Program-made: the position numbers and the translations under genes
The notes under the pieces: generated by a model
Database searches by the model: none
What the model was told of the DNA's origin: nothing
The model's input: only the letters and a program-made list of their open reading frames with translations
In this document: positions 27,339-30,095 of the stretch, piece by piece
Layout of the letters: each line of letters opens with the position of its first letter
Numbering within the stretch: position 1 is the stretch's first letter
Source: Comamonas sp. lk
GTDB lineage: Bacteria > Pseudomonadota > Gammaproteobacteria > Burkholderiales > Burkholderiaceae_C
DNA: 43,414 bases
Reading direction: 5' to 3'
Assembly (NCBI GenBank): GCA_945861345.1
Contig: CAMATX010000009.1
Span: forward strand, 1 to 43,414

Positions 27339-28439
27339 TTAAGCGCTCACGCGCGCGGCGCGGCGCGCTTGCACTGCCTGCGACAAGACGTCCAAGCAGG
27401 CCAGCGAATCGTCCCAACCCAGACAGGCGTCGGTAATGCTTTGGCCGTAGGTGAGGCCTTGCACTAAGTCTTTGCCGGGCGTGAATTTTTGTGCGCCCGC
27501 TGTGAGGTGGCTCTCCACCATGACGCCGAAAATCTGCGTGGAACCCTGGCTGATTTGCCCGGCAATGTCTTGCGCCACCTCGCGTTGCTTTTGGTGCTGT
27601 TTGCTGCTGTTGGCATGGCTGCAGTCCACCATGAGTGATTGCGCCAAACCCGATTTAGCCAAATCTTGGCAGGCTGCGGCCACACTTTTGGCGTCGTAAT
27701 TGGGCGCTTTGCCGCCACGCAAAATGACGTGGCAGTCCGGGTTGCCCTGGGTTTGCACAATCGCGACCTGGCCGTTTTTGTGCACCGACAAAAAGTGGTG
27801 CCCTCCCGCAGCCGCCTGGATGGCGTCGGTGGCGATTTTGATATTGCCATCGGTGCCGTTTTTAAAGCCAATAGGTGCCGACAGGCCCGAGGCCAATTCA
27901 CGGTGCACCTGGCTCTCAGTCGTGCGCGCCCCAATAGCGCCCCAGGCAATCAAATCGCCCAAATACTGAGGCGAGATCACATCCAAAAACTCGCTGCCGG
28001 CAGGCAAACCCAGGCGGTTGATGTCGATCAGCAATTGTCGCGCGATACGCAAACCCTCGTCGATGCGAAAGCTTTCGTCCAGGTAAGGGTCGTTGATCAG
28101 GCCTTTCCAGCCCACGGTCGTGCGGGGTTTCTCGAAATACACGCGCATCACGATCTCCAGCGTGTCGGCGTAGCGCTCGCGCTGGGATTTGAGGCGGGCT
28201 GCGTATTCCAGGGCGGCGTGCGGGTCGTGGATGGAGCAGGGCCCGATAACCACCAGCAGCCGGTCGTCGGCGCCGCCCATGATGGCCTGAATACGTCTGC
28301 GCGTGTGCGCCACCAGGGTCTCGACGGCGGTGCCCTGGATCGGGAAAAAGCGGATCAGATGCTCGGGGGGCGGTAACACGGTAATGTCCTTGATGCGTTC
28401 GTCGTCGGTCATGCTTGTGCGGTCTGCGTTGGCATTCAT
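27339..28439 (-). CDS. aroG: 3-deoxy-7-phosphoheptulonate synthase, class I (AroF/G/H type)
   Basis: A 366-residue class I DAHP synthase: LLVVIGPCSIHDP, the FEKPRTTVGWKGLINDP block that binds phosphoenolpyruvate, SQVHRELASGLSAPIGFKNGTDG and the metal site in VDCSHANSSK. It joins PEP and erythrose-4-phosphate in the first step of the shikimate pathway. Which aromatic amino acid inhibits it cannot be read safely, so the symbol aroG is only a class label. A GAGGA lies 9 bases before the ATG. It sits behind a leader peptide and terminator (28479-28608), listed separately, that look like a transcription attenuator. It is downstream of tldD on the same strand. Confidence 0.95.
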   Translation of the reverse strand: MNANADRTSMTDDERIKDITVLPPPEHLIRFFPIQGTAVETLVAHTRRRIQAIMGGADDRLLVVIGPCSIHDPHAALEYAARLKSQRERYADTLEIVMRVYFEKPRTTVGWKGLINDPYLDESFRIDEGLRIARQLLIDINRLGLPAGSEFLDVISPQYLGDLIAWGAIGARTTESQVHRELASGLSAPIGFKNGTDGNIKIATDAIQAAAGGHHFLSVHKNGQVAIVQTQGNPDCHVILRGGKAPNYDAKSVAAACQDLAKSGLAQSLMVDCSHANSSKQHQKQREVAQDIAGQISQGSTQIFGVMVESHLTAGAQKFTPGKDLVQGLTYGQSITDACLGWDDSLACLDVLSQAVQARRAARVSA

Positions 28440-28478: not shown

Positions 28479-28506
28479 AAAAAAACCGCCGGGGAGGCCG
28501 GCGGTT
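28479..28506 (-). terminator. Attenuator terminator in the leader of the DAHP synthase gene
   Basis: Read on the minus strand: AACCGCCGG, loop CCTCC, CCGGCGGTT, then a run of T residues (complement of the A-run from 28479). The stem is 9 bp and GC-rich. It lies 33 bases after the stop of the leader peptide and about 40 bases before the synthase ATG, the standard place for an attenuator. Confidence 0.9.
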
Positions 28507-28539
28507 CGGGGAATTCGGTACGCTTTTGACTGCTTGCGT

Positions 28540-28608
28540 TCAGAAACCTCTCACGCCGGTGGCGATAGAGAACCAGAAGTAGCTAAAGTAAAAATGCTGA
28601 GAATTCAT
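28540..28608 (-). CDS. Aromatic-rich leader peptide controlling the DAHP synthase gene
   Basis: A 22-codon open frame, ATG 28608 to TGA 28540. Residues 5-13 are HFYFSYFWF: in the eight residues 6-13 seven are Phe, Tyr or Trp (four Phe, two Tyr, one Trp); one more Phe is the last codon. The start lies 26 bases after the tldD stop. Such runs stall ribosomes when the cognate aminoacyl-tRNA is scarce, as in the pheA and trp leaders. Bases 28554-28559 and 28545-28548 in its last codons can pair with the 5' arm of the terminator below. No clear Shine-Dalgarno or dedicated promoter was found, so transcription may come from inside or before tldD. Confidence 0.86.
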   Translation of the reverse strand: MNSQHFYFSYFWFSIATGVRGF

Positions 28609-28634
28609 GGGCGCAAATGTACCACAGGCATTTT

Positions 28635-30095
28635 CTAGGCCGTTCCGCCCACGGTCAGGCCGTCGATGCGCAAGGTCGGTTGGCCCACGCCCACGGGCAC
28701 GCTTTGGCCCTCTTTGCCGCAGGTGCCCACGCCACTGTCCAGTCGCATATCGTTGCCGATCATGCTCACACGCTTGAGGCAATCGGGGCCGCTGCCTACC
28801 AAGGTGGCGCCCTTGACCGGATAGAGAATTTTCCCGTTTTCCACCCAATAGGCCTCGCTGGCCGAAAACACAAATTTGCCCGAGGTAATGTCCACCTGCC
28901 CGCCGCCGAAATTGACCGCGTACAAGCCTTTTTTGATGCTTTGCACGATTTCCTGGGGGTCTTTGTCGCCGCCCAACATATAGGTGTTGGTCATGCGCGG
29001 CATGGGCACATGGGCATAGCTTTCGCGCCGTCCGTTGCCGGTGGGGGCCACGCCCATCAGGCGGGCGTTCATGGCGTCTTGGATGTAGCCTTTCAAGATG
29101 CCGTCTTCGATCAAGACATTGCGCGCACTGGTGTTGCCCTCGTCGTCCACATTGAGCGATCCGCGCCGTTCGGCGATGGTTCCGTCATCGAGCACGGTCA
29201 CGCCCTTGGCGGCTACGCGCTGACCCACGCGGCCGCTAAAGGCGCTGGAGCCTTTGCGGTTGAAATCGCCTTCCAGACCATGGCCAATGGCCTCGTGCAG
29301 CAAGATGCCAGGCCAGCCTGAGCCCAAAACCACCGTCATTTCGCCCGCCGGAGCAGGGCGCGCCTCCAGATTGGTCAGCGCGGCATGCACGGCTTCATCA
29401 ACGTAGCGGCCAATGAGTGCATCATCAAAATAGGCCAGACCAAAACGGCCGCCACCGCCTGAGGAGCCCACCTCGCGCCGGCCTTTTTGCTCGGCAATGA
29501 CGGTGACCGACAAGCGCACCAGGGGCCGCACATCGGCAGCCAAGGTGCCGTCTGCGCGGGCTACCAAGACCACGTCGTATTCCATGGCCAGTCCGGCCAT
29601 CACTTGCAAGACGCGCGGATCTTTGGCGCGCGCCAGTTTTTCCACTCGCCCGAGCAGTGCCACTTTGGCCGCGCTGTCCATGGTGGCGATCGGGTCCTGG
29701 TCCGGGTAGAGGCGGCGGCTGCGGGCGATTTTGGGCTTGCCTACCGCCACGCGCCGCCCGCTGGCGGCTTGAGAAATACTGCGCACGGTATGTGCTGCGT
29801 CCAAGAGCGCGGCTTCGGAAATATCGTCTGAATACGCAAACGCGGTTTTTTCACCGCTGACGGCGCGTACGCCCACGCCTTGGTCGATGCTGAAAGAGCC
29901 GGTTTTGACGATGCCCTCTTCCAGGCTCCAACCCTCGGAGCGCGTGTATTGGAAATAGAGGTCGGCTTCGTCGACTTTGTGGGCCCGTATTTCGGCCAGC
30001 GCGCGCGTGAGGTGCGACTCGTCCAGGCCAAAAGGGGTGAGTAACAAGGCCTTGGCTGTGGCCAAGCGTTCAAGAGTGGGTTCGCGAGAGATCAT
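28635..30095 (-). CDS. tldD: Metalloprotease TldD
   Basis: A 486-residue TldD. The zinc site is H267-E268-xxx-H272 in [14 protein letters not shown], an HExxxH form specific to this family. N-terminal and C-terminal beta-rich domains are complete. In E. coli it works as a heterodimer with TldE (PmbA) to degrade unfolded peptides and mature microcin B17. No tldE is in this window, as is normal for separate loci. It follows rodA on the same strand and ends 26 bases before the aromatic leader. Confidence 0.97.

Follow-up and report, generated by a model that had tools for sequence, protein, structure and literature searches.

A candidate transcription attenuator with phenylalanine, tyrosine and tryptophan codons precedes a DAHP synthase gene in Comamonas and many other Burkholderiales

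The DAHP synthase gene of Comamonas sp. lk is very probably governed by a ribosome-mediated transcription attenuator that would respond to phenylalanine, tyrosine and tryptophan, the three amino acids for which DAHP synthase makes the common precursor. This reading comes from the sequence and predicted folding of an element in a 43,414-nucleotide (nt) stretch of DNA (hereafter, the window) and from comparison with related loci. The main features of the class that can be judged from sequence are found here: a leader open reading frame (ORF) rich in codons for the end products, an intrinsic terminator before the gene and, from pairing and folding models, a predicted antiterminator that shares the 5′ arm of the terminator. 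A first-pass annotation of the window had interpreted the locus as an attenuator, and comparative anatomy supports that interpretation, which predicts termination, read-through and a starvation response; the predicted antiterminator, protector stem and leaderless start are additions that the annotation had not noticed.

The element lies on the minus strand between tldD (28635..30095), a same-strand upstream neighbour outside the element, and the gene presumed to be regulated (27339..28439), both assigned from ORFs and family models. The latter encodes a 366-amino-acid class I DAHP synthase of the aroFGH type (AroG-like), which scores 537 bits against NCBIfam TIGR00034 aroFGH (cut-off 173), also matches Pfam PF00793 and scores 550 bits against the AroG model NF006723, slightly below the cut-off of 568. 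The leader ORF (28540..28608) starts 26 nt beyond the end of tldD at 28635 and translates as 22 codons, MNSQHFYFSYFWFSIATGVRGF, followed by a stop. Its codons 6–13 (28570..28593), delimited by translation and codon-variant counts, read Phe Tyr Phe Ser Tyr Phe Trp Phe, confirming the annotated seven aromatic codons in eight (four Phe, two Tyr, one Trp). Folding places the 5′ side of a predicted protector hairpin, region 1, at 28561..28571 (UCUCU...CGCC). Region 2 (28547..28559; CCGGCG...AGAGG) has alternative partners, either region 1, as the protector, or, through CCGGCG, region 3, as the antiterminator. Region 3 (28498..28507; GAACCGCCGG) is the terminator 5′ arm, defined by terminator scan, folding and pair counts, and region 4 (28479..28492; CCGGCGG), defined by terminator scan and pair counts, comprises the terminator 3′ arm and the U-tract. 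A terminator scan of the junction stretch returns a single site at 28507–28483, with ten pairs, seven of them G–C, and a T-run after it; its 9-bp core, AACCGCCGG/CCGGCGGUU, is the GC stem with U-tract already noted in the annotation, and the synthase ATG at 28439 on the minus strand lies 3′ of this U-tract hairpin (28507–28479). Taken alone, the terminator site is not significant, because shuffles of the stretch give 0.8 expected.

The aromatic density of the leader sets it apart. Among 659 short frames in the window (12–45 codons, longest per stop, both strands), it alone has at least seven aromatic codons in nine, the runners-up having four. Across 497 kb of fetched loci, each of at least 3 kb, 64 of 6,482 short frames reach seven in nine, and one of those 64 is not a leader: it lies in L124 and overlaps the terminator of that locus.

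Our survey covers 190 stretches upstream of DAHP synthase genes (L001–L190): loci from the nearest genomes (L001–L030), an order-wide sample of the next 60 genomes by rank (L031–L090; 150 of 200 genomes had a match, and 83 of those 150 were left out), 20 lower-ranked gene copies (L091–L110) and, from a longer list of named loci, the best 80 (L111–L190). Leaders were called by a script as frames of 12–45 codons with at least four aromatic codons in nine and a terminator 60–160 nt after the frame start, so that a U-tract and terminator are present in every call by construction. A leader with terminator is found at 117 of the 190 stretches, comprising 24/30 in the nearest set, 28/60 in the order-wide set, 1/20 among lower-ranked copies and 64/80 among the best named loci. 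A 118th call, before the second-copy gene L093, was judged on visual inspection to be a false positive and removed. The 117 leaders represent 108 distinct peptides, and the sets overlap (L031 and L121 yield the same peptide). Five negatives have less than 150 nt upstream (L003, L004, L024, L026 and L122), of which L003 still has the terminator. Comparison of Burkholderiales junctions, which the first-pass annotation had proposed as a check, shows that the leader frame, the aromatic run and the stem are kept across many families while a large part of the sequence between them varies.

A further part is conserved in these leaders. Every one of the 117 has, 8–20 nt beyond the last aromatic codon, a GGC(GG) block, outside the search criteria, that is complementary to the terminator 5′ arm over 5–10 contiguous pairs (G–U allowed). 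Of 23,400 shuffles of the spacer, 960 score at least as high in pairing as the real sequence; 52 of the 117 leaders are matched by at most 2/200 shuffles and 91 by at most 10/200. The block is read in all three peptide frames (52, 59 and 6 of the 117 leaders), coding for GGR, LAD/LAE/KAV or RR-type residues (for example, ..GGREI, ..PLADREG and ..KAVE), and it is therefore the RNA that is kept and not the peptide tail. In the same-genus loci L011 and L020 there is one base fewer before region 2, which shifts the frame of the tail and retains GGCGGTAGAGAG; the missing base may be genuine or an artefact of assembly.

Pair counts on 60 sequences describe stems that are mutually exclusive, with limited covariation. 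The terminator is 98.5% paired, with three pairs changed on both sides, a number matched in 1/500 shuffles. The 2:3 antiterminator is 88.8% paired, with 14 two-sided cells (0/500 shuffles as high), and its numbers of pairs with two-sided change (one) and of further pair types (four) lie within the shuffles (500/500 and 392/500 as high, respectively). The outer protector stem, UCUC:GAGA in the window and UUCC:GGAA in others, is 86.2% paired with 22 two-sided cells (0/500 shuffles as high); two-sided changes occur in four of its five pairs, compared with 3.2 in shuffles, 185/500 of which reach four. The inner protector stem (CGCC:GGCG) shows no covariation in pair counts. These counts partly support the outer stem, and not the inner one, of the predicted protector hairpin that would compete with the antiterminator. 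One base of arm 3 (column 145) is shared by both alternatives and co-changes with each of its partners, in 19 two-sided cells for the terminator and 14 for region 2; over the 117 leaders, this base and the one opposite it in region 2 are G/C in 59, A/U in 29, U/A in 2, G/U in 10 and unpaired in 17. A quick tree of 105 proteins, including 88 with a leader, has 3 changes of the arm-3 base and 14 of the region-2 base, giving two to three independent 2:3 pairs, too few for a sign test, so that the covariation rests on few events. RNAalifold run on the alignment predicts the terminator and neither the antiterminator nor the protector stem.

The leader start has features that would suit leaderless translation. 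An SD-like tetramer lies 4–16 nt before the leader AUG in 2 of the 117 leaders. A −10-like hexamer is found 4–11 nt before the AUG in 73/117 leaders versus 98/975 other ATGs in the same stretches, and its extended form, with TG one base in front, in 65/117 versus 5/975. The window has a predicted extended −10 element, TGGTACATT (28616..28624, minus strand), 7 nt 5′ of the leader AUG, and the 25 leaders of the window's family (L001, L002, L005–L022 and L031–L035) without exception have an extended −10 that ends 6–8 nt before the AUG; a plain two-hexamer promoter scan gives no site at the window leader. Because Shine–Dalgarno sequences are nearly absent and the extended −10 is close to the AUG, the leader ORF is probably leaderless in this family, and we infer that the transcript in the window begins no more than about 2 nt from 28608, the leader AUG. 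Leaders of the Burkholderia and Oxalobacteraceae types are without a close −10; by eye, they have TATAAA/TATAGT boxes about 25–40 nt before the AUG and may carry a short 5′ UTR. In Burkholderia cenocepacia, 82 short 5′ UTRs are mentioned in the accessible text of PMC5688073.

These parts suggest how the switch would operate. Transcription would start at or beside the leader AUG from the extended −10 promoter, and a ribosome would initiate on the 5′ AUG without a Shine–Dalgarno sequence and trail the RNA polymerase. With charged Phe-, Tyr- and Trp-tRNA ample, the ribosome would reach the stop codon and mask region 2, regions 3 and 4 would make the terminator, and transcription would end before aroG. 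Were any one of the three tRNAs uncharged, the ribosome would stall in FYFSYFWF and mask region 1, so that region 2 (CCGGCG) would pair with region 3 (CGCCGG), no terminator would form and aroG would be transcribed.

Both states of this switch can be folded in silico. Stalling was modelled with the ribosome edge 12 nt from the first base of the A-site codon and with region 4 not yet transcribed. For the window RNA, a halt at F6, Y7, Y10, F11, W12 or F13 gives pairing of region 2 CCGGCG with region 3 CGCCGG at −19.5 to −22.2 kcal/mol, and a ribosome at the stop codon gives the 3:4 terminator at −17.6 kcal/mol. When all leaders are folded with the A site at the last aromatic codon, and with the edge moved back wherever region 2 would be covered, the stalled state gives 2:3 in 116/117 (the exception being L012) and the stop-codon state gives 3:4 in 117/117. 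Mono-nucleotide shuffles do not discriminate the stalled-state fold, as 1,764 of 2,340 shuffles also pair arm 3 upstream; the folding energy of the whole leader is modestly lower than that of shuffles (z −1.92).

Which amino acids the leader would sense is suggested by its codons. The 117 peptides contain Phe, Tyr and Trp in 85 cases, Phe and Tyr in 29, Phe and Trp in 1 and Phe alone in 2, with means of 4.6 Phe, 1.8 Tyr and 0.8 Trp codons per leader. The dense run ends in YFWF in 43/117, and of the 19 same-genus peptides compared, 17 contain Trp. Within two groups of close relatives, of 19 and 13 sequences, all eight single-base variants at aromatic columns stay aromatic, against 1.8 expected, although the numbers are small; a codon test on columns 2–5 of the same-genus leaders had no aromatic column there to count. 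The annotation's suggestion that the leader could sense Phe, Tyr and Trp thus agrees with codon content in the window and most relatives, but not in the 31/117 leaders from which Trp is absent, and sensing of all three is therefore not true of every lineage. There is a real, if lesser, chance that the attenuator answers in practice to one or two of the three amino acids, with the other codons as passengers. Phe is the commonest codon by the means given above, Trp is missing from those 31 leaders, and in the C. glutamicum aroF attenuator, according to the available text of PMC11802643, Phe limitation is effective and Tyr limitation is not; on the other side stand the closing YFWF, the retention of Trp within the genus and the in silico exposure of the antiterminator by a halt at each of the six codons folded.

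The distance from terminator to gene is short, with a median of 79 nt up to where the protein match begins, and would also suit control that is translational, with leader translation gating access to the aroG start, or Rho-based, and in neither case based on the hairpin. We consider this very improbable, since the hairpin is the best-kept part of the element and region 2 pairs with its 5′ arm.

To follow the element beyond these loci, we used an RNA model of the leader (R1) built from 60 sequences, the window's included. In the window's own genome, R1 recovers the leader locus at E = 3.9e-21; three further matches are hairpin fragments with E of at least 0.068, one of them the opposite strand of the leader hairpin. 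A site at G000:C2:44490-44516 in this genome matches the terminator part of R1 (22.5 bits), more weakly on the opposite strand, and is probably an ordinary terminator. In Rfam, whose amino acid attenuators at the time of PMC3766115 covered His, Leu, Thr and Trp as far as the accessible text of that paper lists them, the leader matches no amino acid leader family; a match to sroD, at 22.4 against a gathering score of 50, was taken as a chance match to the hairpin. The leader peptide matches no family in NCBIfam or Pfam.

Named holders of the leader include Polaromonas, Variovorax, Acidovorax, Ramlibacter, Hydrogenophaga, Comamonas, Limnohabitans, Rhizobacter, Rubrivivax, Burkholderia, Paraburkholderia, Caballeronia, Cupriavidus, Massilia, Janthinobacterium, Noviherbaspirillum and Xanthomonas bonasiae. 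Among the best 80 named loci examined, the leader is absent at 16: Polynucleobacter (three), Thioalkalivibrio, the truncated L122, the Rhodocyclales relatives Thauera, Azoarcus, Rhodocyclus, Dechloromonas and two MAGs, two Cupriavidus copies (L134, on chromosome 2, and L137), and three contigs labelled Planctomycetota, Gemmataceae and Verrucomicrobiia. The synthases of these last three (L154, L157 and L158) are 67–69% identical to that of the window and fall on the Comamonadaceae side of the tree, a placement that may reflect misbinning or transfer. In Polynucleobacter (L144–L146), an aroG-type gene has neither leader nor terminator upstream, L041 and L042 look alike in this respect, and an R1 search of the whole L144 genome gives no match; loss of the leader in this genus is likely. 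Presence and absence switch at least seven times on a quick protein tree (105 rows). Two aroG-like copies occur in Cupriavidus necator UYPR2.512, with a leader before L208 and none before L134, and in genome G180 (L036/L098), with a leader before one and not the other; the second DAHP synthase copy of the window's genome (L091) has no such leader upstream.

The leader's position just after tldD, as the annotation described it, holds for the window, but a tie of the element to tldD does not: a TldD C-terminal motif lies within 400 nt of 28 of the 117 leaders (the motif is simple and may miss some), and the element therefore goes with aroG and not with tldD. That the hairpin is a mere tldD terminator and the aromatic frame a coincidence is scarcely credible and is ruled out by conservation as a pairing of chance ORF and terminator, for although tldD ends only 26 nt before the leader start, where an intrinsic terminator would be ordinary, and the hairpin on its own is no better than shuffles, 89/117 leader–terminator loci before aroG have no TldD motif within that distance, different families retain the frame, the spacing and region 2, and the leader's aromatic density is unique among the 659 frames of the window.

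The leader also occurs in another order. A class-wide R1 search finds matches in 21 of 274 genomes at E ≤ 0.01: three from the window's family, two from family f63 and 16 others. The two f63 genomes, which belong to the same class and a different order, match at E < 1e-9, and 8 of 40 f63 genomes match at E ≤ 1e-4 (L194, L195 and L201–L206), each of the eight matches preceding a gene 62–66% identical to the window's DAHP synthase; one such leader reads MNAARASFYFWYYFPKPLAEEGLRSP. The Xanthomonas bonasiae locus (L180/L209) has the same leader type, and f63 appears to be the Xanthomonas family. Terminators of X. bonasiae and f63 have the form GCCGCCAG..CTGGCGGC, and L180 is a long branch in the tree; the leader they have in common may have arisen by shared descent or by transfer. 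Of the 16 genomes with weaker matches, five (loci L196–L200) were examined and have no DAHP synthase at the match; L196, L197 and L199 nonetheless contain a frame with five aromatic codons in nine.

As a predicted attenuator, the leader would explain in a testable way how entry into the shikimate pathway is controlled in Burkholderiales, namely by a direct reading of the charge of Phe-, Tyr- and Trp-tRNA. The 108 distinct peptides, with varied codon mixes and Shine–Dalgarno sequences nearly absent, form a natural series for studying leaderless translation coupled to transcription, and the element might serve to control the production of aromatics in Cupriavidus-like hosts. By analogy with rnTrpL and peTrpL of Sinorhizobium, the terminated RNA of about 130 nt from such a leaderless three-input sensor would be a small leaderless mRNA, and it is conceivable, although we think it unlikely, that this RNA, or the aromatic peptide it encodes, influences other genes in trans. 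If so, a single small transcript would signal to the cell the state of Phe, Tyr and Trp together.

A parallel in logic is with Escherichia coli pheL–pheA and trpL–trp, in which control codons are coupled to alternative protector, antiterminator and terminator hairpins; the predicted hairpin logic is the same here, and the E. coli leaders differ in sensing one amino acid each. These E. coli attenuators are named in PMC11802643. The DAHP synthase genes of E. coli are controlled by TyrR and TrpR, according to passages of PMC11802643 and PMC5343134, and the latter describes, in its accessible text, both regulators as conserved in gammaproteobacterial groups and absent from other classes. Within Proteobacteria, a predicted attenuator before a DAHP synthase gene has a precedent in Vibrio. 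The gene concerned is named aroAI(alpha)_Y, which we take to be a DAHP synthase gene. For two Vibrio species, Table 7 of PMC1173090 cites an entry from the Merino website on putative attenuators ahead of aroAI(alpha)_Y > tyrA; the entry leaves the leader peptide undescribed in the part available and, unlike the locus here, concerns an operon with tyrA. The accessible portions of PMC2965389, PMC7563307, PMC7011215, PMC2864571, PMC7377471 and PMC6321483 contain nothing for the leader terms searched. Among the open-licence papers retrieved, titles and abstracts describe no aroG leader in Burkholderiales or Xanthomonas relatives, where a list entry may exist. The locus thus joins a known type of device to a known kind of target, and for these lineages no description was found. 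An aroR–aroF attenuator of Corynebacterium glutamicum was reportedly described by Neshat et al. in 2014. A putative Phe-Tyr-Phe leader peptide at C. glutamicum aroF is noted in the available text of PMC4046766, and that of PMC11802643 has aroR, a leader with Phe-Tyr-Phe, governing the aroF operon; attenuation of a DAHP synthase gene is thus already on record in this species, and the annotation's statement that no description was known concerns this gene in its own group. As here, a Phe-Tyr-Phe leader precedes a DAHP synthase gene, and ribosome halting is said to raise transcription; unlike here, the host belongs to another phylum, Phe but not Tyr is the reported signal, and Trp is unmentioned in the text available, the likeness being one of description. 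For the start of the transcript, a counterpart is Sinorhizobium meliloti trpL (rnTrpL), whose RNA begins with its AUG and which, in the accessible text of PMC7298713, combines this leaderless start, predicted here, with a ribosome-dependent terminator; it differs from our leader in having Trp codons only and in controlling trpE(G), and its released RNA and peptide (rnTrpL and peTrpL) act in trans.
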